This document shows, in pieces, positions 2 through 19,581 of a stretch of 28,605 nucleotides of DNA. Source of the DNA: a virus; IMG/VR virus record IMGVR_UViG_3300025326_000164, positions 1 to 28,605 of that record; one strand, written 5' to 3'. The position numbers and the translations under genes are program-made. Under the pieces are notes generated by a model, which worked only from the letters and a program-made list of their open reading frames with translations, did no database searches and was not told where the DNA came from. Within the stretch, counting starts at the first letter, position 1, and every line of letters begins with the position of its first letter.

Positions 2-430
2 GAAGCCGGAGGATACTCAAAAGTACCAGCACCCACCAAAACATACAAACACGAAGACGGCACAGAGGTAGTAGTAGAGGCAGGTAAAGTGGTTGACATT
101 AAAAAGCCAAAAGCACCTGAAACTCCCGCTACTGACTTCACCGCTTTTGCTAACGAACTTTTCAAAGCATTTCCTAAAACAGATTTGACGGCTATTGAGG
201 CATCGCTTTCTGAATTGAAAGCAACCCTTTCAGCAATCTCTTTAGAGAAAACCGAACTGAAGGCGAAAGTGGACAAATTTGAAAATTTCAAGACCGAAGT
301 GATTTCTATTCTTGAAAAATTTTCTGCTGAACCTTCAGCCAAAAGCACACAAGGAGCTAAGACCAACTCAGCTAACGAGCAATTATCGTTAGAAGATTGG
401 CGCAACAAATTCATGAAACACCAACCTTAA
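2..430 (+). CDS. Scaffold-like protein, 3' part (5' end outside window)
   Basis: The frame is open from base 2, so the true start lies upstream; a GTG at 89 is only an internal candidate. The visible 142 residues begin with a short segment containing EDGTEVVVEAGKVVDI, a pattern I associate with the C-terminal part of protease/scaffold proteins of Bacteroidota phages. A helical, charged, coiled-coil-like stretch (LSELKATLSAISLEKTELKA onward) and a polar tail follow. It ends 18 nt before the major capsid gene, the usual place of a scaffold, which would guide procapsid assembly and then be removed. Whether a protease domain precedes it cannot be seen. Function is inferred from position and composition. 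Confidence 0.6.
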   Translation, partial: EAGGYSKVPAPTKTYKHEDGTEVVVEAGKVVDIKKPKAPETPATDFTAFANELFKAFPKTDLTAIEASLSELKATLSAISLEKTELKAKVDKFENFKTEVISILEKFSAEPSAKSTQGAKTNSANEQLSLEDWRNKFMKHQP

Positions 431-2447: not shown

Positions 2448-4179
2448 TTACAAAAATAGTATCATGGTGCTTAAGATGGCAGCCCATGATGTACCCCAAT
2501 TTAAGGAGGTACATGGAAAGAACTTTGTTTATTACGGAAATCGTAATGAATATCCCGATTATCTTCTTGACTTATATAACCGTTCAGCTAAACATAACGC
2601 TATTGTCAACGGAAAAGCTAAGTATGTCTTCGGAAGTGGGTTTGAAAAAGAGGGTGATGAGATTGTAAACGCTGAGAATGAAACTTTGAATGATGTCGTA
2701 AAGAAATGTATACTGGATGTCGAGTTGTTTGCCGGTTTTTATGTTGAAGTTATCTGGGACAAAGGAAAAAAGAATATAGCGGAACTTCGCCATGTTTGTT
2801 TTTCAGATGTGAGGAGTAATAAAGATAATACTCAGTTTTATTACACAGACACTTGGACAAAGTCTTATTTGAATGACAAGGATGAGCCGACTGTAACCGG
2901 CATATCAAACCCGCAGAGTAACAAGGACTGGCAGGTTTATGCGCCTTACGATGAGAAAAATAAAACAGGAAAGCAGTTATTCTTTTATAAGGGATACCGT
3001 CCCGGACTTAAAACATATCCTTTACCTGAATATCAGGGGGCGATAGTTTATATTGATATAGACGTTCAGATTGCCGATTATTGGAATAATGCTATCCATA
3101 ACGGACTTAGTGCATCACATATCATTAATTTTTATAACGGCATACCGACTGAGGCAGAACAGGAGAAGTTAGAAGAGGGAATCAGTGATAAGTTAACAGG
3201 GGCGAGAAGTTCAAAGTTTATACTGAATTTTGCTGATAAAAAAGATAATGGAAGTGAGATTCAGAGCCTTGCACCGGAGGACTTAGACAAGCATTTGCAG
3301 ATACTTAATGAAACAGTCCAGCAAGAAATCTTTTCGGGGCATCATATAACAAGTCCGATGTTATTCGGAATAAAGACAGCAGGGCAATTAGGGGGGAGAA
3401 CAGAATTGATAGAGGCGAATGAATTGTTTCAAAATCTATATGTTAATCCGAAACAGCAATTGGTTGAAAAGCTGATAGGGATATTAGCGAAGGCAAAAGG
3501 CATTAAAGGGGAGTTGAAACTTGGGAAGATTGAGCCGATAGGTTATCAGTTTTCTGAATCAATAATTAGAGATGTTATACCTCATGAGGCGATAGCCGAT
3601 ATGGTAGCTTCGAGGATGGGAATTGATTTAAAAAAGTATCCTAAAAGAATTATTCCCGAAGCACCTGCTAAATTTTCTGTTAAATGGGAAGAAAGGATTT
3701 TAGATGAATTTAAAAAGCGGGGCAAGAAACGAGGCGGCGTAGTTATCTCACAACGCCCGATGGAATCAGCATATATTAAAAATCTTGCTGAAAATGAGGC
3801 GCAGTTTATTGACTTTGCTAAAAAGGAAATCAAGAAAAACCCATCTATTGTCCCTGTTATAAATCCTTTAAAGCCGCTCATTAGCCCCACAGGAGAGCCG
3901 ATAGGACGTATTAGTGTGGTTTATACTTATGCTTTTAGAGATGCTATTCCCGTTAAGGACAGGGACTCAGAGGAGCACCCCTCAAGGGATTGGTGTGTAG
4001 AAAGAATGGAAGAAGCAGCATCGGGTAAAACGTGGACACGGGAGGAAATAGAGGGAATGACAAATGATATTGGTGAGAGTGCATGGGAGATGCGCGGGGG
4101 GTGGTACACGGCTCCGGGCACAGATACTTCTTTGCCTTATTGCCGGCACGTATGGATTCAACAAGTAATAATTACATAA
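2419..4179 (+). CDS. Portal protein with minor-head-like C-terminal segment
   Basis: 586 residues from GTG 2419, or 571 from the ATG at 2464, which avoids the overlap and is equally likely. The portal forms the dodecameric vertex through which DNA is packaged. Portal-like features are the early KNFVYYGNRNEYPDYLLDLY segment, VNGKAKYVFGSGF, and the helical core with HHITSPMLFGIKTAGQLGG. The last ~130 residues carry a different motif set: RGGWYTAPGTD (about 559-569) and PYCRHVW (about 573-579), a Gly-rich/Cys-Arg-His-x-Trp ending seen in MuF/SPP1-gp7-type minor head proteins. That suggests a portal fused to a shortened minor-head region. The gene lies downstream of the capsid gene, the reverse of the common order. 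Confidence 0.75.
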   Translation: MKKSINTPPDYKNSIMVLKMAAHDVPQFKEVHGKNFVYYGNRNEYPDYLLDLYNRSAKHNAIVNGKAKYVFGSGFEKEGDEIVNAENETLNDVVKKCILDVELFAGFYVEVIWDKGKKNIAELRHVCFSDVRSNKDNTQFYYTDTWTKSYLNDKDEPTVTGISNPQSNKDWQVYAPYDEKNKTGKQLFFYKGYRPGLKTYPLPEYQGAIVYIDIDVQIADYWNNAIHNGLSASHIINFYNGIPTEAEQEKLEEGISDKLTGARSSKFILNFADKKDNGSEIQSLAPEDLDKHLQILNETVQQEIFSGHHITSPMLFGIKTAGQLGGRTELIEANELFQNLYVNPKQQLVEKLIGILAKAKGIKGELKLGKIEPIGYQFSESIIRDVIPHEAIADMVASRMGIDLKKYPKRIIPEAPAKFSVKWEERILDEFKKRGKKRGGVVISQRPMESAYIKNLAENEAQFIDFAKKEIKKNPSIVPVINPLKPLISPTGEPIGRISVVYTYAFRDAIPVKDRDSEEHPSRDWCVERMEEAASGKTWTREEIEGMTNDIGESAWEMRGGWYTAPGTDTSLPYCRHVWIQQVIIT

Positions 4180-7505: not shown

Positions 7506-7738
7506 TGGAAAACTTTTACAAAATAACAAAAGCAGAAGCATCTCTGATAGGGTATTTTGAATATGCTCAAAACAAGGCATTTAACCCTTTCGTCGGGGAA
7601 CAGGTAGATGGTAATTATTTGATTTCTGAAACTATGTATGATTTATTGAATGGAAGCGATGAATTTAAAAAAATCAGCTTTGGCGGAAAAACCACAATTA
7701 CTAAAGGAAATTTAGATACAAAAATTACCAATTTATAA
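7505..7738 (+). CDS. Small hypothetical tail-region protein
   Basis: 77 residues, soluble, no recognised motif. Start and stop overlap the neighbouring genes by 1 nt each (TAATG on both sides), so it is almost certainly translated as part of this string. Its place between the last appendage gene and the lysis genes would suit a fibre chaperone or assembly protein, but nothing in the sequence proves that. Confidence 0.55.
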   Translation: MENFYKITKAEASLIGYFEYAQNKAFNPFVGEQVDGNYLISETMYDLLNGSDEFKKISFGGKTTITKGNLDTKITNL

Positions 7739-7986
7739 TGGAATTTAATACTATGGCAGAAAGAACTCATAGACAATATCTGAGCGACATGGACAAGAAG
7801 ATTGACCGCATCCACACCATATTAATCGGTGACGAGGAGGCGAAGCAAGACGGATTAGTTCATAAGGTCGAAAGGAACAGTGCCTACATACGTAAAGATA
7901 AAAAATTCAAATGGACGGTGGCAACGATGTTATTCGGGGGGACAGGGTCATTCATGGCATGGGCTAAGACGCATTTAGGGTTATGA
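7738..7986 (+). CDS. XhlA/holin-like lysis-associated membrane protein
   Basis: 82 residues. The N-terminal 50 residues are charged and coiled-coil-like (YLSDMDKKIDRIHTILIGDE, then GLVHKVERNSAYIRKDKKFK). One hydrophobic segment near the C-terminus (WTVATMLFGGTGSFMAWA) could span the membrane. This arrangement, with the dimerising region in front of a single C-terminal membrane helix and a basic KDKKFKW junction, is that of XhlA-type proteins that cooperate with phage holins. It overlaps the endolysin gene by 4 nt (ATGA). Precise holin class is uncertain. Confidence 0.6.
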   Translation: MEFNTMAERTHRQYLSDMDKKIDRIHTILIGDEEAKQDGLVHKVERNSAYIRKDKKFKWTVATMLFGGTGSFMAWAKTHLGL

Positions 7987-8435
7987 AGATAAGCACACAT
8001 TTTTATGTCGAGGATTTTGTCCCTAAAATAATTCACACTCAATTTGGGGATAAATCAATATGGTTTATTTCTAAATTTATGGTGGACTATGCCGAGCTTC
8101 TTTGGTCGAGGTATAATAAGCAGGTAATTATAAATAACTGGAAAAGCGGAGGCACTCTTGAAAACAGGGGATTTAGAACACCCGACGCTTTAGTTGGCGG
8201 AAAACTATCGCAGCATAAATTTAGAAACGCCATTGACACGAATGTCGCGGGGGTTTCTCCCGAAGAGGTAGCAAAAGATATTATTGATAATTTTACTATA
8301 TATTCAAAGGTTGGATTAACTACGATTGAAGATGTGAAATTTACCACAGGAGATGTGGGAGGTGATTTAAAGGGATGGAATCACGGGGACGCGCGATGGA
8401 CTAACCAAAGGGATATATTAATAGTGAAGCCGTAA
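7983..8435 (+). CDS. Endolysin, peptidase M15 (D-Ala-D-Ala carboxypeptidase-like)
   Basis: 150 residues, the usual size of single-domain M15 endolysins. Zinc ligands are visible: SQHKFRNAID at 76-85, corresponding to S-x-H-x6-D (His78, Asp85), and GWNHGD at 131-136, providing the W-x-H-x-D motif with His134. The usual Gly in the first motif is replaced. The enzyme would cleave peptide bridges of peptidoglycan to free progeny phage. There is no signal peptide, so export depends on a holin, and candidate holins flank it on both sides. Confidence 0.8.
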   Translation: MKISTHFYVEDFVPKIIHTQFGDKSIWFISKFMVDYAELLWSRYNKQVIINNWKSGGTLENRGFRTPDALVGGKLSQHKFRNAIDTNVAGVSPEEVAKDIIDNFTIYSKVGLTTIEDVKFTTGDVGGDLKGWNHGDARWTNQRDILIVKP

Positions 8436-8469
8436 AAGGAAAATACAAATCAATTAAAAACCAAATACC

Positions 8470-8751
8470 ATGACAGCAGAAAAAGAGAAAACAGCAGTAG
8501 GGAAATTCCTACAAAATATTGGCATACCGATTCTTAAAGGAGGAATCAAATCCATCCCGTTTGTCGGTAATATTGCAGTAGATATTATCGAAAATATCAC
8601 GAAGAAAGACCTTGCCACAGGCACACCGAAGAGCCACAATCAATTTGTTTTGATTATAGAGGTAATCGGCGCATTGACGCTGGCATACCTTGTAATCAAA
8701 GGAATCATTCCTATTGACCAATTGCTTGAATATATCAAAGGAGTAGTATAA
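8470..8751 (+). CDS. Holin-like small membrane protein
   Basis: 93 residues. An amphipathic N-terminal half (VGKFLQNIGIPILKGGIKSI) precedes one strongly hydrophobic segment (FVLIIEVIGALTLAYLVIKG, about 58-77) and a short C-terminal tail. Small size, a transmembrane helix and location 34 nt after the endolysin support a role in membrane permeabilisation. No holin family is recognised with certainty. The two membrane proteins around the endolysin may work together. Confidence 0.5.
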   Translation: MTAEKEKTAVGKFLQNIGIPILKGGIKSIPFVGNIAVDIIENITKKDLATGTPKSHNQFVLIIEVIGALTLAYLVIKGIIPIDQLLEYIKGVV

Positions 8752-8762
8752 CGCTGTCGGGA

Positions 8763-8873
8763 ATGTTTTATCTCGACCTGCTACAGAACCCTCAACGCCC
8801 AAAGTCAAACTTCTGGGTGTGTTGGTTGCTATGTATAGTGATACTCGCTTTTGTTTATGTCTTTTCTAAGTAA
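8763..8873 (+). CDS. 36-residue membrane peptide of the lysis region
   Basis: A short frame from ATG 8763 to TAA 8871-8873. The N-terminal 16 residues (MFYLDLLQNPQRPKSN) are polar and the rest is one membrane helix (FWVCWLLCIVILAFVYVF) ending in SK. It begins 11 nt after the holin-like gene and ends at a hairpin region. No lipobox is present, so it is not an obvious outer-membrane spanin, but it could be a lysis accessory or antiholin. It is easily overlooked because of its size. Confidence 0.5.
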   Translation: MFYLDLLQNPQRPKSNFWVCWLLCIVILAFVYVFSK

Positions 8874-8940
8874 TTGCCCTCTGATTATGGTTAATACTTT
8901 GGGCAATCCTATAAGCCACCTCTACGTGTAAGTGGCTTTA
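8873..8940 (+). terminator. Double hairpin at end of late genes
   Basis: Two stems follow each other: ATTGCCC / GGGCAAT (8873-8879 with 8901-8907) and AAGCCAC / GTGGCTT (8913-8919 with 8932-8938). Only a short T-rich stretch follows. It lies between the late genes and the first early-type promoter, so it probably ends late transcription. Confidence 0.5.
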
Positions 8941-8966
8941 GGTAATTTATTTCCAAAATAATTTTA

Positions 8967-8996
8967 TTGTGTATTCAAATATTATATGTATGTTTG
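8967..8996 (+). promoter_or_regulatory. Bacteroidota-type promoter
   Basis: A -7 box TATGTTTG (8989-8996) matches TAnnTTTG, and TTG at 8967-8969 lies 19 nt upstream as the -33 element. The next start codon is at 9012, so the leader would be about 10 nt. Confidence 0.7.
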
Positions 8997-9011
8997 CATT
9001 AAATATTGAAT

Positions 9012-9212
9012 ATGTCTAAAAATCTTTTATCCGTTTCCGACTATGCTGACCTATGCGGAGTGAGCAGGGCAGCTATCTATCTTCGCATAGGTAGGGGCGT
9101 AATCATCCCACAGACAGCAAGCAATGGCAAATACGAGGCATTAGTGATAGATACCGCCTTCTATCCACCTCGCAAGATGAAGGCAGGTAGAAAGCCCTTT
9201 AAAATAGCTTAA
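9012..9212 (+). CDS. Small helix-turn-helix DNA-binding protein
   Basis: 66 residues from ATG 9012 (an in-frame TTG at 9006 is less likely). SVSDYADLCGVSRAAIYLRI forms a clear helix-turn-helix of the MerR/excisionase type: a helix, a turn at GVS, then a recognition helix. A basic C-terminus (RKMKAGRKPFKIA) could add DNA contacts. It has its own promoter and stands between the late region and the early genes, so it may be a switch regulator or excisionase-like factor. Confidence 0.6.
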   Translation: MSKNLLSVSDYADLCGVSRAAIYLRIGRGVIIPQTASNGKYEALVIDTAFYPPRKMKAGRKPFKIA

Positions 9213-9273
9213 ATTTTATTGCTTTGATTATCAATACTTTACGATATTGTTAGTAAAATAGTTTACTTTTTAC

Positions 9274-9302
9274 TTGACATATCAAAAATGTGCTTATCTT
9301 TG
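9274..9302 (+). promoter_or_regulatory. Bacteroidota-type promoter, near-leaderless
   Basis: TTG (9274-9276) and TATCTTTG (9295-9302) are spaced 18 nt apart, a good match to the -33/-7 consensus. The ATG at 9307 lies 4 nt after the -7 box, so the transcript would start at or next to the start codon. Confidence 0.75.
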
Positions 9303-11882: not shown

Positions 11883-12017
11883 TAACATTTCGGGGCTAAC
11901 CGAAGGCGGGAAAACAGAGGTAAATTTGTAGTAATGAAATCAATTAAAATCAATAATAACCGTAACAGAAAATACCCGCTTTTGGCAAGCCCTTGTTATT
12001 GGCTGATGCAAATGGGC
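11883..12017 (+). repeat. attC-like site 1 plus 5' flank of next cassette
   Basis: TAAC at 11883 and GTTA at 11995. Arms 11893-11910 (GGGCTAACCGAAGGCGGG) and 11975-11992 (CCCGCTTTTGGCAAGCCC) pair at 14 of 18 positions. The 3' flank 11995-12017 pairs at 21 of 23 positions with 12605-12627, beyond the downstream gene. The loop contains a short ORF. Confidence 0.65.
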
Positions 12018-12032
12018 GGCTGCTTGGATTGA
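11934..12032 (+). CDS. Possible 32-residue leader ORF in site 1
   Basis: ATG 11934 in the site loop is preceded by TAAATTTG (11921-11928), a -7-like box. The frame crosses the GTTA half-site and stops at 12030-12032, 21 nt before the start of the gene at 12054. Two other cassette genes have the same arrangement, so it may act by translational coupling. Peptide function is not expected. Confidence 0.3.
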   Translation: MKSIKINNNRNRKYPLLASPCYWLMQMGGCLD

Positions 12033-12053
12033 AATATTAAAAACTAAAATACA

Positions 12054-12584
12054 ATGGCAAGAGTAATAACATTTAGCAGAAAATTTCCTTCTTATCATCC
12101 CGAAAAAGGAAATGAAACATATTTTGTAGAGCAATTATATAATTCGCTTTATGAAAAAAGTGGAGATTGGTCTGATGCAATAGACCCAGATGGAAAAAAT
12201 ACTTCTTATGTAATACCATTAAATCATTCTATTGCCGATAAGAAGCACCATACAATAAGAGATGGAAGGCGTTGGAAAGTTGGAGATAAATTTTCTCCGA
12301 GAGTTTGGAGCGATAAGCCATATAAAAGCAAACAGATAGTTATTGCTCCAGACATTGAGATAAAAAAGATTTGGGACATTGAGGTTAGTATTAATGATTA
12401 CGGAATAAAAACTATTTGTGTAAGTGGAAAAACATTTGCAATAATTGGAGAGCAAATTATCGGCAATGGTAAATTACAAAAATTGGCAAAGAATGACGGA
12501 TTGACAACTATACAATTACATCATTGGTTTAACAAGCCGTTTGAAGGACAAATAATATGTTGGAACGAAAGCATAAAATATTGA
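12054..12584 (+). CDS. ASCH-like (PUA fold) protein
   Basis: 176 residues. The core KKHHTIRDGRRWKVGDKFSP followed by RVWSDKPYKSKQI and IAPDIEIKKIWDIEV matches an ASCH/PUA-type family I recall from Bacteroidota phages: a G-x-R-W-K-V-G-D strand pair and a Trp-rich end (HHWFNKPFEGQIICWN). Such folds bind RNA or nucleotides. MARVITFSRKFPSYHPEKGN is the typical family start. It is the sole gene of its cassette, and a 23-nt inverted repeat flanks it (11995-12017 and 12605-12627). The family call is fairly firm; the substrate is unknown. Confidence 0.6.
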   Translation: MARVITFSRKFPSYHPEKGNETYFVEQLYNSLYEKSGDWSDAIDPDGKNTSYVIPLNHSIADKKHHTIRDGRRWKVGDKFSPRVWSDKPYKSKQIVIAPDIEIKKIWDIEVSINDYGIKTICVSGKTFAIIGEQIIGNGKLQKLAKNDGLTTIQLHHWFNKPFEGQIICWNESIKY

Positions 12585-12604
12585 TGGTGTTTGTATTGGC
12601 TGTT

Positions 12605-12650
12605 GCCCATTTGCATTTGCCAATAACGGTTCGGGGCTTGGCGAGGTTTT
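12605..12650 (+). repeat. attC-like site 2, 5' half only
   Basis: The outer arm 12605-12627 (ending GCCAATAAC) matches the flank before the preceding gene. TAAC at 12624 is followed by GGTTCGGGGCTTGGCGAGG, the same 5' arm as other sites. No complementary 3' half with GTTA follows before the next gene, so this site is truncated, probably by deletion. Confidence 0.55.
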
Positions 12651-12684
12651 CACTTGCGGAAATAGAACACTAAACTAAAAAAAT

Positions 12685-13014
12685 ATGATGCAGATAATAA
12701 AACAAACAGATGAAGAAAAAATGGCTATGTATATGAAAGAGCAAAAAAAAAAACTTGCAGAAATGTTAATCCAATGCAACAAAGTTTTGAATAGCACACT
12801 CAGAGCAAGTGAAAATCTTGTCCAAGCCCCTGTTATGCTTAGTGGCTGGCAGGCGTGTCCGAAATGTAATGGGCAAGGAATTATGAATAAGCCACCATAC
12901 ATTGCTGGCGACCAACAAGGATGGATGAGTTCACAAATGAGCCATGCTTGTGATGTATGTGACGGCAAAAAAATTATCTCGATAGTTGGAGGCAAACCAC
13001 CTGCCAGCCATTGA
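12685..13014 (+). CDS. Coiled-coil protein with DnaJ-like zinc motif
   Basis: 109 residues. A charged N-terminal helix (DEEKMAMYMKEQKKKLAEML) leads to CPKCNGQG (about 58-65) and CDVCDGKK (about 89-96), a paired C-x-x-C-x-G-x-G arrangement like the DnaJ zinc centre. Small proteins of this sort are common in phages; a role as adaptor or nucleic-acid binder is possible. The C-terminal GGKPPASH is encoded at the edge of the following palindrome. It is the only gene in its cassette, which has lost its 5' half-site. Confidence 0.5.
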   Translation: MMQIIKQTDEEKMAMYMKEQKKKLAEMLIQCNKVLNSTLRASENLVQAPVMLSGWQACPKCNGQGIMNKPPYIAGDQQGWMSSQMSHACDVCDGKKIISIVGGKPPASH

Positions 13015-13017
13015 GCA

Positions 13018-13163
13018 TAACGTTTTGCGGCTTGCTTTTGTGCGGGATTTTGAAAACTAAATTGTCTAACGAATTAAAAATAAACTATGAAAAACAAATT
13101 ATCAAATCAAAACGTCAGCCCGCATAGAAGCAAGCCGCTGTTAAATGTCTGGCTGCCCGCGCT
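13018..13163 (+). repeat. attC-like site 3 plus flank of reversed-gene cassette
   Basis: TAAC at 13018 and GTTA at 13140. Arms 13027-13046 and 13119-13138 pair at 18 of 20 positions. The flank 13140-13163 pairs with 13761-13783 beyond the next gene (GGCTGCCCGCGCT with AGCGCGGGCAGC, plus ATTTAAC). Confidence 0.65.
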
Positions 13164-13168
13164 GTCTT

Positions 13169-13720
13169 TCATTTCTTGTCGTTGGTTAAAGTGTCGTGCG
13201 TATTTGTCTGAGGAGTATCTGTTTTGGAAATATGTGTGGTCTGTCCGAAATGAACCGTCCGGGATTGTGCCCTGTCTGTCGAATGGATGGTACTTTGCGA
13301 TTGGGCTATGGTCGGTGATTGGTTGTCTGTGCTATGCTTGTCTATTTGTGCAATGGTTATATCATAAATTGCTTTTCCTCCTCCAATGAGAGATAAAATA
13401 AAAGTCGGCAATAATAGATTAGCTTTCCATCTTGACACTTTTGCGTCATGGTATAATTTTTCTCGTTTTACTTTTTCGTCCTTTTCTATTTGCTTAATTT
13501 CTTTTTCATATTCAAAATATTTATCTACTCCAATGTCTTCTAATTGTATATCTAAAACTTGTTTAAAATATTGTTTTTCATTTAAATATGACCAACAATC
13601 ATTTTTCACTATATGTGTCATTGTCCCTTTTGTCAAGTTGGTCAATTCGGTTTCTGTCAATTGTTTGTCCTTATTATCAACAAGAATTTTCCAAAAGCTA
13701 AGTAAATCTTTGTCGTCCAT
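13169..13720 (-). CDS. Membrane-anchored coiled-coil protein, reversed cassette gene
   Basis: 183 residues, the only convincing gene on the minus strand. The N-terminal half is helical and charged, with a likely coiled coil (EYEKEIKQIEKDEKVKREKL). A hydrophobic segment (ANLLLPTFILSLIGGG, about 105-120) precedes a Thr/Ser/Gln/His-rich low-complexity tail that runs almost to the half-site. The leader upstream of its ATG is A-rich, like other starts here. It lies wholly between two half-sites, so the cassette carries its gene against the array. Such genes in integrons usually need their own promoter. No family recognised; a toxin, defence or superinfection role is only a guess. Confidence 0.6.
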   Translation of the reverse strand: MDDKDLLSFWKILVDNKDKQLTETELTNLTKGTMTHIVKNDCWSYLNEKQYFKQVLDIQLEDIGVDKYFEYEKEIKQIEKDEKVKREKLYHDAKVSRWKANLLLPTFILSLIGGGKAIYDITIAQIDKHSTDNQSPTIAQSQSTIHSTDRAQSRTVHFGQTTHISKTDTPQTNTHDTLTNDKK

Positions 13721-13760
13721 TATCTTATTTTATTGTCTGCTGTCTACGGCTGCTTGTATT

Positions 13761-13914
13761 AGCGCGGGCAGCTTGCATTTAACGAAAAAGTATTGGCGAA
13801 GGGCGGGATTAGAAGCACAAATGATTGTTAAACCACAAATGTTAATTAGATGGACAAAACTTTAAATACAGCACAATGCCCGCCTTTTGCCAATACGGTG
13901 TTAGGCGCAGTGGC
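13761..13914 (+). repeat. attC-like site 4 with cassette flanks
   Basis: TAAC at 13780 and GTTA at 13900. Arms 13790-13807 and 13879-13896 pair at 16 of 18 positions. The 5' flank belongs to the reversed-gene cassette. The 3' flank GTTAGGCGCAGTGGC (13900-13914) pairs at 14 of 15 positions with 14556-14570 beyond the methyltransferase gene. Confidence 0.65.
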
Positions 13915-14545
13915 TTCACAGGTGTTCAATGAGGATTGCGTAGAGGCATTAAAACGCTTTTCTGATAATCACTTTGACTTGGCTATTGTTGACCCGCCTT
14001 ATGGCATTGGAGAGGCTAATGAGAAAAGGATGCAGAGCAGACATCATTCGCAAAAAAAATATAAGGGAGGCGATTGGGATAACGAAGCACCAAGCCCCGA
14101 ATATTTTAGCGAACTGATGAGGGTATCTAAAAATCAAATTATTTGGGGAGCAAACCATTTCATAGAACGCATACCGATAAACAGCAGTTGTTGGGTGTTT
14201 TGGGATAAAGACCAATACGGGGACTTTGCTGATGGTGAGTTGGCATGGACATCATTCAAAACTGCAGTAAGAAAGTTTAAATGGACATGGAACGGATTTA
14301 GGAAACAGCAACCAGAAAACAGAATACACCCAACACAAAAGCCAGTTGCGTTATATGAATGGTTATTGCACGAATACGGAGCAGAGGCTAATTTGATTTT
14401 AGATACCCATGTGGGGAGTGGAAGTAGCAGGATTGCTTGCCATAAGGCGGGTAAACAATTTACAGGATTTGAAATAGATAAAGATTATTACGATGGACAA
14501 GAAAAGCGTTTTAATGACTTTGTATCGCAACTCACATTGTTTTGA
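13850..14545 (+). CDS. Site-specific DNA methyltransferase (N4/N6, beta-type order)
   Basis: 231 residues. The catalytic motif DPPYGIG is at 48-54 and the AdoMet-binding region LDTHVGSGSS at 184-193, with HPTQKP at 160-165. Motif IV before motif I defines the beta group of amino-methyltransferases (PF01555 type). It methylates A or C in a specific DNA sequence; as a stand-alone phage enzyme it may protect phage DNA from host restriction. The first ~17 residues (MDKTLNTAQCPPFANTV) are encoded by the 3' half of the preceding attC-like site. No later ATG gives a complete protein, though GTG codons at 13898, 13910 and 13922 are possible starts. Confidence 0.8.
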   Translation: MDKTLNTAQCPPFANTVLGAVASQVFNEDCVEALKRFSDNHFDLAIVDPPYGIGEANEKRMQSRHHSQKKYKGGDWDNEAPSPEYFSELMRVSKNQIIWGANHFIERIPINSSCWVFWDKDQYGDFADGELAWTSFKTAVRKFKWTWNGFRKQQPENRIHPTQKPVALYEWLLHEYGAEANLILDTHVGSGSSRIACHKAGKQFTGFEIDKDYYDGQEKRFNDFVSQLTLF

Positions 14546-14555
14546 GGGATGCACT

Positions 14556-14694
14556 GCCATTGCGCCTAACGGACGAGGGTTGCCGCAGTTAAAAAATATA
14601 CAATGAAAAAAAATAACAAGGACATATTTTTTAATTGGCGAAGCGAACGTGCAACCCTATGTTACCTGTCTGTATTTTTTTTCAGAAAAGGGGC
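14556..14694 (+). repeat. attC-like site 5 with cassette flanks
   Basis: TAAC at 14567 and GTTA at 14661; inner arms AGGGTTGC (14576-14583) and GCAACCCT (14651-14658) are perfectly complementary. The 3' flank, 14661-14694, pairs with 15306-15338 across the two-gene cassette: GTTACCTG and TATTTTTTTTCAGAAAAGGGGC are identical in both arms, with only 3-4 bases differing between. Confidence 0.65.
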
Positions 14695-14716
14695 GGCTGT
14701 TTGTATTAAACTTTAA
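14603..14716 (+). CDS. Possible 37-residue leader ORF in site 5
   Basis: ATG 14603 follows an A-rich leader (AAAAAATATACA) in the site loop. The frame crosses GTTA and the cassette flank and stops at 14714-14716, 3 nt before the start of the next gene. That spacing suits coupled translation. The peptide has no recognisable domain. Confidence 0.3.
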   Translation: MKKNNKDIFFNWRSERATLCYLSVFFFRKGAAVCIKL

Positions 14717-14719
14717 ACT

Positions 14720-15001
14720 ATGAGTAAAAAACATAATCACACTAAAGCACTTGTGGCAATCGCTGCACACTTTATAAATAAACGCAAAGCAATAGAAGAA
14801 CTTCCGAATCTCGAAGGCAATCCTAATCGTTGCGTTTACTATAATGTTTCTTTTCCGAAATGGAAACGAGAATTGAGAAAGCAACAATTATATTATCCAG
14901 CACTTAAATTTCAAAAGCTGGATGATGAAATGTTGAAACATTATTACAATGAAGGATTTGAACCGATAGATGCTTGCAATGATATGTTAACAGCAACCTA
15001 A
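14720..15001 (+). CDS. Small hypothetical cassette protein
   Basis: 93 residues, basic in the middle (SFPKWKRELRKQQLYYPALK) and acidic at the end. No domain recognised. It is the first of two genes in its cassette; the second follows after 12 nt. The leader TTAAACTTTAAACT is typical of this array. Its function may be nucleic-acid related given the basic patch, but this is weak. Confidence 0.5.
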   Translation: MSKKHNHTKALVAIAAHFINKRKAIEELPNLEGNPNRCVYYNVSFPKWKRELRKQQLYYPALKFQKLDDEMLKHYYNEGFEPIDACNDMLTAT

Positions 15002-15013
15002 TAAATAAAAAAT

Positions 15014-15274
15014 ATGAAAACAGCAAAAGAAATTTTACATTCCAAAGACAGACAATTTCAAGAAGAAACTTTTGCTTATAATGAACAAACCATTATTGAA
15101 GCGATGGATGAGTATGCTGCACAATTTATTCATCCAACTAATTGTTATCAATGCGAGGGGACTGGAAATATTGTGATAAGTATAAATCCAGATGGGCAGG
15201 ATTATACTCAAACCTGTATGAACTGCAAAGGGGTTGGTAAAGTAATTATGTTACCAATGCAACAAAATACTTAA
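15014..15274 (+). CDS. Small protein with two C-x-x-C-x-G-x-G motifs
   Basis: 86 residues. An amphipathic N-terminal segment (YNEQTIIEAMDEYAAQF), frequent in short phage proteins, precedes CYQCEGTG (about 44-51) and CMNCKGVG (about 68-75). The pair forms a DnaJ-type zinc site. Similar motifs occur in the protein at 12685, so the array seems rich in mini zinc proteins. The second gene of its cassette; partner and role are unknown. Confidence 0.55.
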   Translation: MKTAKEILHSKDRQFQEETFAYNEQTIIEAMDEYAAQFIHPTNCYQCEGTGNIVISINPDGQDYTQTCMNCKGVGKVIMLPMQQNT

Positions 15275-15305
15275 TATGATGAATGTATTTTGTTGTTGGC
15301 TGTTA

Positions 15306-15437
15306 GCCCCTTTTCTGAAAAAAAATATTGCAGGTAACGGATTAGGGCTATGAGAAGAAAAATTTATCAATATGAGCCAATGATAAGGGAAATTTTATTT
15401 CTTATAGCCCTTGTTATCGGTCTGGCGGTTAAAGGGG
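15306..15437 (+). repeat. attC-like site 6 with cassette flanks
   Basis: TAAC at 15335 and GTTA at 15413, the shortest full site (82 nt). Inner arms 15344-15356 (AGGGCTATGAGAA) and 15399-15411 pair at 12 of 13, and the stem continues into AAATT. The 3' flank 15413-15437 pairs with 16019-16042 across the next two genes, including GCGGTTAAAGGGG / CCCCTTTAACCGC. Confidence 0.7.
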
Positions 15438-15451
15438 TGGCTGTTGAATAG
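15350..15451 (+). CDS. Possible 33-residue membrane leader peptide in site 6
   Basis: ATG 15350 inside the palindrome opens a frame encoding a basic start (MRRKIYQYEPM) and a hydrophobic stretch (ILFLIALVIGLAVKGVAV). It crosses the GTTA half-site and stops at 15449-15451, 21 nt before the next gene. It could be a leader ORF for coupling or, less likely, a real membrane peptide. Confidence 0.3.
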   Translation: MRRKIYQYEPMIREILFLIALVIGLAVKGVAVE

Positions 15452-15472
15452 AAACTTTTAAACTAAAATAAT

Positions 15473-15706
15473 ATGAAACAATTGGAAGAAAAATTCGAGA
15501 AACTACTACTTAAAAGCAGAGATGCTGATTTGATAGATGCTTATGCAAATTTAAAAGAGGCATTAAATAAAGCAATGGAAGATGCTACAAGAGTGATAAA
15601 ACATTACAATTCGCTGCCAGATAAAGCGGATTTATTCTGCGGACATTGCGGGAAAAGAAAAAATTTTAAGGGTGATGGTACTATTGAACAATTATGTATA
15701 TGCTAA
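15473..15706 (+). CDS. Small helical protein with C-terminal zinc-ribbon-like cysteines
   Basis: 77 residues. A helical N-terminus (LEEKFEKLLLKSRDADLIDA) is followed by CGHCGKRKNF (about 57-66) and a terminal CIC, giving C-x-x-C...C-x-C. The last Cys is the final residue, so the zinc site is compact or incomplete. It opens a two-gene cassette. Between it and the next gene (15707-15766) no half-site is left. Confidence 0.5.
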   Translation: MKQLEEKFEKLLLKSRDADLIDAYANLKEALNKAMEDATRVIKHYNSLPDKADLFCGHCGKRKNFKGDGTIEQLCIC

Positions 15707-15766
15707 GGATGCTGTCGGTTAAATTGAGAATCTTAAACTAAATATAAACTAAAAACAAAACAACAA

Positions 15767-15988
15767 ATGACAACAAGAGCAAAATTCAATGTTGCCGAGA
15801 TTGCTAAGTATGGCAATGGCGGTGGCGCAAAAGTTATCCTACTGCCTGTAACAGGTAACAGCGAGGAAAACAAAACCTTTTGGAGCGCAACTCCAAGTGG
15901 AAAAATCGAAATGTTTATCAATAATCCAGAGGCAGTGAAACAATTTGAAGCCTTTGGAGAATTTTACATTGATTTCACGAAGGCGTAA
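15767..15988 (+). CDS. Conserved small phage protein
   Basis: 73 residues. KVILLPVTGNSEENKTFWSA followed by TPSGKIEMFINNPEAVKQFE and a final FGEFYIDFTKA match a small protein family I know from Bacteroidota phages, where it usually sits near replication genes and has no assigned function. A beta-barrel-like fold is probable. Finding a core-type phage gene here shows that cassettes capture phage genes or that the array and phage share a gene pool. Confidence 0.55.
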   Translation: MTTRAKFNVAEIAKYGNGGGAKVILLPVTGNSEENKTFWSATPSGKIEMFINNPEAVKQFEAFGEFYIDFTKA

Positions 15989-16018
15989 GGTCATAGGGGT
16001 GGTGGCTGTTGGCTGCTG

Positions 16019-16168
16019 CCCCTTTAACCGCTTGCCGATAATGGCTGCCGCGCTTTGTGCCGGGCGCGGGGTGTGCGCTTCGCACCCCTTCGCGCATGGC
16101 ATCAAAGGGCGTTGTTATCGGACGGGTCGCCCGGACGATACAACCGCCTTTCGCGGCAGCCATTATCG
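16019..16168 (+). repeat. attC-like site 7: nested palindromes, no gene
   Basis: CGATAATGGCTGCCGCG (16036-16052) pairs perfectly over 17 bp with 16152-16168, giving a degenerate TAAT/ATTA site. Within it are further hairpins: CTTTG-TGCC (16053 on) pairs with GGCA-TCAAAG near 16098, enclosing GGGGTGTGCG / CGCACCCC, and GTTGTTATCG pairs with CGATACAAC before the closing arm. The stretch is more GC-rich than its surroundings. Confidence 0.6.
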
Positions 16169-16420
16169 AACAGGACACGCCTTTCATGGCTGTTGGGCGG
16201 CCTGTTCGATAACGTATTGCAGGTTGGCGCAGGATTTAAAATTGCTAAACAAAACACAAATAGAAAGACCATGAAAAAAGAAGACATAATAAAATGCTTA
16301 CAGGAAGCAACGATAAAAAACATAACAGAAAAAGGCGTTGAATGGAAGCTCCTATTTGAAGATGGGGCTGATGCAATTTTAAAACTTGCCGCCCAACCTG
16401 ATGTTATAAAATCGGTTTGC
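16163..16420 (+). repeat. attC-like site 8 and gene-less mini-cassette
   Basis: TTATCGAACAGG (16163-16174) pairs perfectly with CCTGTTCGATAA (16201-16212) around only 26 nt, an empty mini-cassette. TAAC at 16210 and GTTA at 16403 then bound a long site: arms include TTTAAAATTGC (16235-16245) with GCAATTTTAAA (16373-16383) and AGGTTGG with CCAACCT. The flank 16403-16420 pairs with 16498-16514. Confidence 0.6.
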
Positions 16421-16498
16421 GATTGCGGGAAAGAGGCAACAACTCATTTGTGCGAAAAATGTTTAGATGATATAGAATCAATGGATGGTGGAGGATAG
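16271..16498 (+). CDS. Zinc-ribbon mini-protein spanning two array modules
   Basis: 75 residues from ATG 16271. The first ~44 residues (to AAQPD) are encoded inside the long site 8; the rest (VIKSVCDCGKEATTHLCEKC...) lies in the next bracketed module, 16403-16514. The cysteines C-x-C...C-x-x-C form a zinc-ribbon-like set. The junction VIKSVC is encoded by the half-site GTTATAAAATCGGTTTGC. The same junction and module ends recur at 17008-17113 with different contents, so this protein looks like a chimera assembled by recombination. An upstream in-frame extension into the palindromes is rejected. Confidence 0.5.
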   Translation: MKKEDIIKCLQEATIKNITEKGVEWKLLFEDGADAILKLAAQPDVIKSVCDCGKEATTHLCEKCLDDIESMDGGG

Positions 16499-16573
16499 CA
16501 AACTGTTTTATAACGGTTTCGGGGCTTTATTTAGTGCGGGAGTTGCTTGCACAAATTTGTCCCGAAGCAGAAA
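16498..16573 (+). repeat. attC-like site 9, 3' half degenerate
   Basis: GCAAACTGTTTTATAAC (16498-16514) closes the zinc-ribbon module. TAAC at 16511 is followed by GGTTTCGGGGCTTTATTTAG; TTCGGG can pair with CCCGAA near 16561, but no GTTA remains. The site seems decayed or truncated. Confidence 0.5.
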
Positions 16574-16593
16574 CATAATTAAAAACTGAAAAT

Positions 16594-16824
16594 ATGAAAA
16601 AAGCAAAGAAACCCGCATTGAATAAAGCCCCTGTTACCAGCAGTGCTTCTCCGAAATTAGAACACTTGGTAATAGTAGGAAAATTCAATGATGGAAAATG
16701 TAGGCAAGTGTTGATACAACCTAAAACGCAAGATGTAATTATCTCGGCTATATTGGCTTGTGAAGGTCAATTAAGAATATTAGAAACAGCACTTGACGGA
16801 CTTGATATTGAGTTACCGTCTTAG
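16594..16824 (+). CDS. Small hypothetical cassette protein
   Basis: 76 residues. A basic, Ala/Pro-rich start (MKKAKKPALNKAPVTSSASP) precedes a compact alpha/beta-like part (LEHLVIVGKFNDGKCRQVLI, then ISAILACEGQLRILETALDG). No family recognised. The only gene in its cassette; the leader AATTAAAAACTGAAAAT is typical. Confidence 0.5.
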   Translation: MKKAKKPALNKAPVTSSASPKLEHLVIVGKFNDGKCRQVLIQPKTQDVIISAILACEGQLRILETALDGLDIELPS

Positions 16825-16833
16825 CATTGCTGG

Positions 16834-17011
16834 TAACGTAATTCGGGTTGCCGTAGTGCGCCCATAAAAATAAAAACTATGACCAGAGAATATTCATAAG
16901 GAAAGTATCTTGGAAATAAAAGATACGAATACAATAACGCAGACATAGATTTAATGCGTGAAGATTTAGATAAAGTAATTGATTACCACGCATTACGGCA
17001 ACCCGATGTTA
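16834..17011 (+). repeat. attC-like site 10
   Basis: TAAC at 16834 and GTTA at 17008. Arms 16843-16860 (TCGGGTTGCCGTAGTGCG) and 16989-17006 pair at 17 of 18 positions, the best stem in the array. Like site 8 it is long because its loop holds the start of an ORF. The flank 17008-17026 pairs with 17096-17113. Confidence 0.65.
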
Positions 17012-17112
17012 TAAAATCGGTTTGCCAAAAGTGCGGTGCTGAAATGGAAGGAGCAACTTATAAGGGTTATAAAATGTGTCATGTATGCAGAGAGTGGCAA
17101 ACTGTTTTATAA
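16879..17112 (+). pseudogene. Broken zinc-ribbon mini-protein (in-frame TAA at codon 7)
   Basis: ATG 16879 has a normal leader (AAAAATAAAAACT), but TAA at 16897-16899 interrupts the frame, which otherwise runs to 17112. The remainder encodes GKYLGNKRYEYNNADIDLM..., then QPDVIKSVCQKCGAE and CHVCREWQTVL, a four-Cys zinc-ribbon. It has the same two-module build and the same VIKSVC junction as the gene at 16271. A C-to-T change of CAA would explain the stop; initiation at ATG 16954 could still give 52 residues. Confidence 0.5.
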
Positions 17113-17166
17113 CATACAATATAGATTGCATAGCATCTAACTAACTAATAACTAAAACAATAAACT

Positions 17167-18039
17167 ATGGAAATTTCCAAGTACATGGATGAGTATAGAA
17201 AAGAACTTGAGAGAAAGTTCTTTAGACCAAAGAGCATAGATGTATATGTTTCTTGTATTGGAGTATTTTTAAATTACTTCGACCAGAAGAAAACCCATCC
17301 AATAAAGATTAACGAATCGGACATTAAAGAATACCTATGGAAATTTGCTGAACAGAATACACAGCGGGCGCATCACTCGGCAATTAAATGTTTTTATAAA
17401 TACACTCTGAGGCAACCAAATAAATTTAAGTATATTGAATATGCGAAGCGCAATAGAAAACTTCCCATTGTTTTATCTATCGAAGAAATGCAGAGAATTA
17501 TATTTACTGCTTCTAACTTGAAACACAAAACAATTCTTTGCCTGATGTATTCTACCGGAATGAGGGTGGGAGAGGTAATCAATCTGAAACTATCCGACAT
17601 TGACCGCTCTCGTATGGTTATTAATATTCAGGATGCTAAAGGTGGAAAAGACAGGCAAGCTACTTTAGACCCTCTCGTATTACAATTAATGGAAATTTAT
17701 TACAGACAATATAAGCCGAATGTGTTTTTGTTTAATGGGCAATTTGATTTACGATATTCAGCAAGAAGTATCGCTCAGTTCTTACGGGACTATGCTTATA
17801 AAACGGGAATAAAAAAGAAAGTTCATCCGCATTTAATCAGACATTGCTATGCTACGCACTTATTGGAAGCGGGAATAGATATGTCGGTACTTCAAAAAGT
17901 ATTGGGGCATTCGTCTATTTCAACTACTCAGATTTACGGACACATCAGCAATAATATTGTTTCAAAAATTATTACCCCCGTTCAGTTTATTGCTAATAAA
18001 AACTTTCAACTGCCCACCCAACAAAGACTATCCGCATGA
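17167..18039 (+). CDS. Tyrosine recombinase (XerC/XerD-like integrase)
   Basis: 290 residues. N-terminal SAM-like core-binding domain 1-95, catalytic domain 100-270. Catalytic residues visible: Arg133 (TGMRVGE), Lys158 or Lys161 (AKGGKDR), His222 and Arg225 (HPHLIRH), His248 (LGHSS) and nucleophile Tyr257 (TQIYGH). It joins and exchanges DNA at specific sites. The length and the short region between the Lys and the H-x-x-R motif are Xer-like; the extra ~16-residue insertion that defines integron integrases is not evident. It starts 53 nt after the end of the cassette array and overlaps the next gene by 4 nt. It is either the phage integrase or the enzyme that moves the cassettes, or both. Confidence 0.85.
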   Translation: MEISKYMDEYRKELERKFFRPKSIDVYVSCIGVFLNYFDQKKTHPIKINESDIKEYLWKFAEQNTQRAHHSAIKCFYKYTLRQPNKFKYIEYAKRNRKLPIVLSIEEMQRIIFTASNLKHKTILCLMYSTGMRVGEVINLKLSDIDRSRMVINIQDAKGGKDRQATLDPLVLQLMEIYYRQYKPNVFLFNGQFDLRYSARSIAQFLRDYAYKTGIKKKVHPHLIRHCYATHLLEAGIDMSVLQKVLGHSSISTTQIYGHISNNIVSKIITPVQFIANKNFQLPTQQRLSA

Positions 18040-18765: not shown

Positions 18766-19581
18766 ATGAGCAAGGAACTTCCATATTTTAAATTCATTCC
18801 GACCGAATATTTGCTCGGAACTATAAGTTTTCAGAAAGAAAAAATTCAGGGTACATTCACATTGGTCTGTTGCTACTACTGGCAAAGACATTGTGATATT
18901 ACCCTTACTTTGCTTAACCAGTTGTTAAGCAAACGTCAAGCAAACGTCAAGCAACTTATCAAAGCTGATATAGTGAAGCATGACGAAAAAACAGATAAAA
19001 TAAATATAGATTTTTTAGATGAACAATGGCATGAACTCAGTAATCTTTATGAAAAAAGAAGTAAGGCTGGAGCAATAGGAGGTAAGCAATCGTCAAGCAA
19101 TCGTCAAGCAATCGTCAACGATACCTCAAGCATTAAGATAGAGATAGAGAATAAGAAAGAGATAAAAGATAAAGATAAAGATTCCTTGCGAACTTTGTTC
19201 GCTGAAATGAAAAAGTTTTTTATGGAAGAATACAGAAAAAAAATAAACACAGATTATTATTGGGGCGCTAAAGATGCTGTTAATTTAAACCAATTAATCA
19301 CTAAAATTAAATACAAAATAAAAGAAAAAGAAAAACGCTCTGGCGAAAAAGAAAAAGAAAATTATGACGAAGAAATTTTAACCGGATTCAAGCATTTAAT
19401 ACTTTCATCAAAAGACAAATGGATTAACGCTCAATTTTCAATACCTATTTTTAATTCAAAGTTCAATGAAATATTTACTCAAATTTTAACTAACAATGGA
19501 AAACCAATTATCAACGCAAGAACAATGGCTGATGCTATGGAAAAAGAATTTAACCCAAAGCAAGGCAATACAGCTATTTGA
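18766..19581 (+). CDS. Replication initiator-like protein with internal origin
   Basis: 271 residues. The N-terminus (ELPYFKFIPTEYLLGTISFQ, then KIQGTFTLVCCYYWQRHCDI) has the look of phage replication proteins with a winged-helix DNA-binding domain (DnaD / lin1244-type). The middle is low-complexity and Lys-rich (about 124-143), a linker encoded by A-rich DNA, and the C-terminal part is helical. Its coding sequence contains 11-bp iterons and a palindrome, as in lambda gene O, so the protein probably binds its own gene to start replication. It has a dedicated promoter and folded leader, and overlaps the next frame. Confidence 0.6.
   Translation: MSKELPYFKFIPTEYLLGTISFQKEKIQGTFTLVCCYYWQRHCDITLTLLNQLLSKRQANVKQLIKADIVKHDEKTDKINIDFLDEQWHELSNLYEKRSKAGAIGGKQSSSNRQAIVNDTSSIKIEIENKKEIKDKDKDSLRTLFAEMKKFFMEEYRKKINTDYYWGAKDAVNLNQLITKIKYKIKEKEKRSGEKEKENYDEEILTGFKHLILSSKDKWINAQFSIPIFNSKFNEIFTQILTNNGKPIINARTMADAMEKEFNPKQGNTAI
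18909..19190 (+). other. Putative phage replication origin (iterons inside initiator gene)
   Basis: A perfect palindrome TTTGCTTAAC-cagtt-GTTAAGCAAA (18909-18933) leads into two tandem AAGCAAACGTC units (18927-18948) and a partial third. A second cluster holds three identical AAGCAATCGTC units (19084-19116) and a degenerate fourth. The 11-bp period is not a multiple of three, so encoded residues differ between copies and the repeat is conserved as DNA. A purine-rich, AT-rich tract (about 19128-19190) follows and could be the unwinding element. Confidence 0.6.

Follow-up and report, generated by a model that had tools for sequence, protein, structure and literature searches.

The window analysed here, the whole 28,605-nucleotide stretch of viral DNA (IMG/VR record IMGVR_UViG_3300025326_000164), is a Bacteroidetes-type phage with an integron-like row of cassettes adjoining its own recombinase gene, and it carries the tailed-phage genes for a portal, head proteins, an SSB-like protein and an endolysin. 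It is rather likely that this row is a phage-borne, integron-like cassette array, in which whole units move at TAAC boxes while the re-pairing of fronts and tails at GTTA boxes gives rise to chimeric proteins. Both the anatomy and the history of the array are well supported: its architecture, the reading frames that cross its boxes, the breakpoints, the selection acting on the coding sequence and the adjacency to the recombinase gene are all directly observed. The novelty resides in the combination of a non-IntI recombinase with genes that straddle the boxes, an arrangement that allows chimeric proteins to arise by exchange.

An inverted-repeat search over 8.7–17.25 kb revealed a chain of abutting hairpins, with TAAC / GTTA boxes between them, which ends 53 nt upstream of the tyrosine recombinase gene. 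Two kinds of hairpin alternate in this chain, namely a short-loop, attC-like hairpin (the N hairpin), which begins after TAAC, stops at GTTA and contains a start codon in its loop, and a long-loop body hairpin, which spans GTTA to the following TAAC and has arms of up to 34 nt (14661–14694 pairing with 15306–15338). Many ORFs of the array start in the N hairpin, pass in frame over GTTA and end in the body, e.g., ORF 12685–13014 of cassette 2 (crossing GTTA at 12832, QAP/VMLSG, where the slash marks the crossing point), the DNA methyltransferase ORF 13850–14545 of cassette 4 (GTTA at 13900, NT/VLGAV) and ORF 16594–16824 (GTTA at 16633, KAP/VTSS). The features are as follows:

11883–17113, + strand: cassette array, from the inverted-repeat search; the attC-like scan finds 7 sites, all on +
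11887–12627, + strand: cassette 1, attC-like hairpin 11887–11994, body 11995–12627 with ORF 12054–12584
12628–13021, + strand: cassette 2, attC-like hairpin 12628–12831, body 12832–13021
13022–13783, + strand: cassette 3, attC-like hairpin 13022–13139, body 13140–13783
13784–14570, + strand: cassette 4, attC-like hairpin 13784–13899, body 13900–14570
14571–16041, + strand: cassettes 5 and 6, attC-like hairpins 14571–14660 and 15339–15412
14661–15338 and 15413 to about 16041, + strand: bodies of cassettes 5 and 6, with arms up to 34 nt
16214–16402, + strand: N hairpin with the start codon and front half of ORF 16271–16498, arms 16220–16245 pairing with 16373–16400
16403–16514, + strand: body/tail module 1, from GTTATAAAATCGGTTTGC to GCAAACTGTTTTATAAC, encoding VIKSVC and a Cys-rich tail
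16515–16837, + strand: next cassette, attC-like hairpin 16515–16632, body 16633–16837
16838–17007, + strand: N hairpin with the front half of the broken ORF (ATG 16879, stop TAA 16897–16899), front family as in loci L083 and L086
17008–17113, + strand: body/tail module 2, encoding VIKSVC and a different Cys-rich tail
17114–17166, + strand: attI-like leader, with ATA[CG]AATATA directly after the terminal TAAC
17167–18039, + strand: XerA-like tyrosine recombinase of 290 aa, lacking the IntI-specific insertion

The sites at 14571–14660 and 16214–16402 were read by eye and are missed by the attC-like scan, the latter hairpin being under its threshold. The G+C-rich stretch at 16036–16213, with overlapping small hairpins (16036–16052 pairing with 16152–16168) and a degenerate box TAAT, probably represents one or two decayed cassettes. 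The likely gene of cassette 3, 13169–13720 with 183 aa, is oriented against those of the neighbouring cassettes, being on the minus strand. DnaJ-like CxxCxGxG zinc motifs are found in two cassette proteins (12685–13014 and 15014–15274), so that such Cys-rich modules also exist outside the VIKSVC family. Moreover, the methyltransferase cassette body is self-complementary along its length, with nested arms of 15–22 nt around one centre and within coding sequence (z-score of the fold −11.8; a maximum of 23 in 12 synonymous-codon shuffles, versus 39, 35, 35 and 26), and arms lie at corresponding positions in L044, L048 and partly L014. This self-complementarity suggests that the whole cassette has been selected to fold as a single strand. 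Beyond the array, ORF 18766–19581 (phrog_29280) contains repeated 11-bp units AAGCAA[AT]CGTC at 18916–18948 and 19084–19127, possibly iterons of a replication origin.

The sequence-only reading had concentrated on two ORFs near the end of the array, proposing that different first halves and different second halves are joined through a junction encoding VIKSVC, where protein halves may be swapped. This junction, GTTATAAAATCGGTTTGC, is indeed located in frame in both ORFs (16403–16420 and 17008–17025, + strand), with only 0.07 chance matches with up to three mismatches expected in the window, and the common ending claimed for both modules is equally present, GCAAACTGTTTTATAAC ending at 16514 and 17113. 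The module size, given as 107–112 nt with an end at 17112, is correct for the first module (112 nt) and had to be amended for the second, which measures 106 nt and ends at 17113. The modules are bounded by inverted repeats, as had been described, and both fold as hairpins (z of −2.8 for module 1, where 2 of 200 shuffles fold as well, and −4.3 for module 2, where none of 200 does). ORF 16271–16498 is intact; the second was rightly read as broken, being otherwise in frame with the junction, and the front half of its family is intact in its relatives L083 and L086. Neither the fronts nor the tails exhibit similarity beyond the common arms, and BLASTP of the two fronts and two tails at E up to 10 returned a single 5-residue match only, which rules out a tandem duplication of the two ORFs.

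These junction modules turned out to be part of the larger array, their junction one box among many. About 50 viral contigs and three Bacteroidetes MAGs carry it: the exact 18-mer is found in 21 viral contigs and a slightly degenerate form in 50, a few of them by chance. In the genome collection, three of the 12 exact matches are real (L030, L033 and L035), and the other nine, without a proper hairpin, are about the number expected by chance; across 395 genomes in the phylum, the junction was found in one other genome, again without a hairpin. Many combinations of N- and C-terminal halves through the same junction, proposed as a check on the swapping of protein halves, were looked for in the viral contigs and found. 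The proposed swapping is thus supported; an enzyme as its agent is inferred and not demonstrated.

The attC-like sites were scanned on the fetched loci with the pattern TAAC-(3..8)-arm...arm-(0..4)-GTT[AG], which yielded 180 raw matches, corresponding to 170 distinct sites, versus 12 in reversed sequences. Their boxes are paired, the repeats being inverted and imperfect, and the spacers are asymmetric, mostly 5–6 nt at the left, TAAC side and 1–2 nt at the right, GTTA side; in these respects, they qualify as integron-type attC sites. The position frequencies of the boxes fit TAAC/G and T/GTTA, without RRRY. A scan with a longer attC consensus matched one contig only, so there is no single fixed arm sequence, and a search of Rfam gave only weak matches, far under the gathering score of each family. 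An ATG ORF that starts in the short hairpin and runs at least 60 nt over GTTA is present at 91/170 sites, compared with 12/170 on the opposite strand, and at 61/138 versus 11/138 once the VIKSVC family is left out. The codon phase of GTT is 0 in 65 cases, 2 in 21 and 1 in 4; phase-2 bodies, mostly methyltransferases, come after phase-2 fronts, many of which end in AKP immediately before the box.

In the VIKSVC family, 57 of 61 tail modules have an open front frame containing ATG, 34 stop at the TAA inside TTATAAC, and 51 match C-x(1,2)-[CH]...CxxC, with the first Cys encoded by the arm. Differences between homologous halves are distributed as 64/27/138 over the three codon positions in 502 codons, which shows that both halves are translated and constrained. 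The tail arms fall into two types, AAAA/TTTT and AAGT/ACTT, and of the 46 modules in which both arms could be typed, 43 have matching types on the left and right. One and the same front half is found with both arm types, which places those crossovers within the GTTATAA box, to the left of arm position 8; L014, with a K-type left arm and an S-type right arm, is not explained by a cut at GTT. The chimeras are mostly 55–110 aa long and consist of a short front, probably helical according to our own reading of the sequences, and a Cys-rich tail that is inferred to be probably zinc-binding. Searches of Pfam and PHROGs with five chimeric proteins gave weak matches only, none at a curated cut-off. 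That chimeras are made and useful is inferred, and it is a guess that they interfere with proteins of the host or of rival phages.

Fronts and tails were clustered separately and the loci compared pairwise at the DNA level, where three kinds of sharing were observed: whole units, tails alone and fronts alone. The same front is followed by different tails in L003/L059/L062, L060/L071, L055/L063, L083 and the window module at 17008, L074/L053 and L033/L075, and the same tail by different fronts in L003/L010, L060/L074, L071/L014 and L012/L061, the breakpoints between front and tail being located at the GTT box. Whole units are shared by L061/L064, where the identity of 99.3% covers exactly −192..+108 and the flanks differ, by L067/L072 (99.1%), and by L025/L075 and L005/L015 (89%), and their homology ends sharply at the TAAC boxes. 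The evidence that units move precisely is comparative only, resting on L061/L064, L067/L072 and L014/L017. Tails alone are shared by L003/L010 (89.7% over −1..+115) and L060/L074 (89.4% over −1..+111), and fronts alone by L003/L062 (91%) and L055/L063 (89%). With all arrays taken together, GTTA marks the end of 46 homology blocks, with a peak just past its 4 nt, and TAAC the beginning of 57; GTTA exchange also occurs outside the VIKSVC family, and some attC-like sites are 96–97% identical, yet have different bodies. In the VIKSVC family, the most recent exchanges (99–100% identity) are all of complete front and tail units at TAAC, and front/tail re-pairing is seen at 70–91% identity only; therefore, re-pairing at GTTA in this family may be old or may result from another process.

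As side observations, L014 (6248–8005) and L017 (9524–9644) are about 100% identical except for an alternative joint at TAAC boundaries: in L017, TTATAAC of one boundary is joined directly to the sequence past a TAAC boundary 1,640 bp downstream. This joint is the product expected of a TAAC x TAAC deletion and could reflect natural cassette excision or an effect of assembly; since L017 continues through a short-homology join that is possibly an assembly error, the event is suggestive only. L061 carries a cluster of 12 tRNA genes plus tmRNA (7736–9299) on the same contig, and the flanks of its shared unit, at about 3390–4000, contain tRNA-like T-arm sequences.

The recombinase (P0001) is XerA-like, scoring 128 bits with the PDB structure of XerA and 196 bits with NF040815 (cut-off 220). 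TIGR02249 matches it at 160 bits (cut-off 265) and in two separate stretches; in the alignment with IntI4, 35 residues stand against 78 in IntI4, and the protein aligns with XerA in one piece. It thus fails the criterion of the integron-specific insertion of the IntI type. The array lies directly beside the recombinase in all seven loci with a related gene (100–25% identity), and the relatives, which are 79, 58, 49, 40, 31 and 25% identical, all start about 50 nt past the terminal TAAC. A VIKSVC-type tail is terminal in the arrays of the window, L091 and L094, and the leader sequence is kept in the three closest loci (window, L024 and L025); the leader is attI-like, its function as attI being inferred. 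A recombinase of the window type is present in only 6 of 40 array-bearing contigs, which counts against the proposal, though many of these contigs are fragments. The Cellulophaga phage Ingeline_1 and record MT839798 have a related recombinase, but an array was not found in them. By inference, the boundary box may be read as TAA/C on the + strand and G/TT on the − strand. The attC-like hairpin would then have integron polarity on the minus strand, the genes would run antisense to this polarity and the recombinase would be divergent from it, as in ordinary integrons.

In the proposed mechanism, the XerA-like recombinase probably inserts and removes TAAC-bounded units at the attI-like site before its own gene, each unit consisting of an attC-like hairpin and a body hairpin. 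With the start codon and the protein front in the attC-like hairpin and a frame that continues over GTTA into the body, the move of a whole unit would transfer a complete gene, and re-pairing of hairpin and body at GTTA would generate a chimeric protein. The body of VIKSVC-family units is a small Cys-rich tail, and many of their fronts and tails have been re-paired. Cutting of both boxes by the recombinase and its use of folded single strands are inferred. The weak step is the role of the recombinase in front/tail re-pairing, which is likewise inferred, no reaction having been observed. A dedicated combinatorial protein assembly, in which the recombinase cuts both boxes of each attC-like hairpin and fronts and tails are re-paired in frame, is put forward only tentatively, as a possibility with less than even prospects.

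It is conceivable, albeit on balance unlikely, that the recombinase moves cassettes at TAAC only and that re-pairing reflects homologous or template-switch recombination within the conserved 18-nt arms, between phages with a common host, leaving the chimeras as a by-product. The lower identity of re-paired halves compared with the most recent whole-unit moves and the unlike left and right arms of L014 fit this explanation; however, mappable crossovers lie left of arm position 8 instead of being spread along the arm, and the homology ends at GTTA extend beyond the VIKSVC family. The conserved inverted arms, the length of about 110 nt and the many unrelated neighbours could also point to the VIKSVC tail being a MITE-like mobile element that inserts behind ORFs and provides a new C-terminus. 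This reading is largely refuted and very improbable, since the tails form many unrelated clusters between conserved arms, the opposite of what marks a MITE family, namely a related interior; moreover, the module ends are the boxes of all other bodies in the arrays, and the module follows an attC-like hairpin. Covariation in the tail arms, where two arm pairs have double changes in 9 and 10 sequences, is among the evidence for the array but cannot tell DNA from RNA, so the hairpins might act as RNA, in termination or translational control, with ordinary phage mosaicism behind the modularity. Mosaicism, however, predicts neither breakpoints within a few bases of the boxes nor arrays that consistently end beside a recombinase, and little weight can be given to this explanation.

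The array works like an integron, an activity that is inferred, and is not classed as one because its recombinase has no IntI insertion and its genes point in the wrong direction. As in integrons, it abuts a tyrosine recombinase gene with an attI-like sequence between them, and its units have imperfect inverted-repeat sites with boundaries at a GTT/AAC box. Unlike in integrons, the recombinase is colinear with XerA, the ends of the bodies also form long hairpins, and the genes run towards the recombinase; whereas integron attC sites lie 3' of the cassette gene, here the gene starts inside the attC-like hairpin and crosses a second box, and the integron R box consensus GTTRRRY / RYYYAAC is not met by TAAC/G. 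In shufflons and other C-terminus switches, a recombination box within the coding sequence likewise allows the exchange of protein ends; their segments invert within one locus, whereas the present modules are common to different phages and joined in direct orientation, and a non-systematic inspection showed no tail module in inverted form. In Treponema integrons, the recombinase and the cassette genes also have the same direction, but the recombinase is transcribed towards attI and the cassette genes away from it (PMC3607928), while in the present array it is the genes that are directed towards attI and the recombinase that points away from it. Methyltransferase cassettes also occur in phage CALINs. 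The set of CALINs and integrons from phages in Qi et al. 2023 (PMC9892861) includes phage P12002L, which has the present site type; the accessible portion of that paper describes no through-site ORFs, front/tail re-pairing or non-IntI recombinase. The literature, searched without most subscription journals and any preprints, gave no account of ORFs running through attC with re-pairing.

Cultured Polaribacter phages carry such arrays, which makes the proposal directly testable. Leef_1 (L126, 3849–5946) has the same type of array before an integrase gene, with a spacing of about 50 nt, and its gene Leef1_37 starts in a hairpin and then crosses GTTAGC (LTIP/VVSF). The lytic phage P12002L (L129, about 31117–40949) contains about nine sites, alternative box readings being counted once, and several of these sites are crossed by ORFs, among them P12002L_0060 (SLNG/VGCS); a relative of the recombinase could not be recognised in this phage, which also counts against the proposal. 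According to the accessible part of Qi et al. 2023 (PMC9892861), P12002L_attC2 was recombined with attI1 by IntI1, although the correspondence of that site to those described here is unverified.

Among the arrays compared, one attC-like site can be found joined to several bodies and one body to several sites, the breakpoints lying at a single box, and a protein is altered by every such re-pairing. If true, a dedicated assembly would amount to a bacteriophage counterpart of exon shuffling, and would offer a direct view of attC sites becoming attached to new genes, a process that, to our knowledge, remains an open question of integron biology. If it is the recombinase that carries out the re-pairing, phages would own a site-specific route to new small proteins built from swappable halves.
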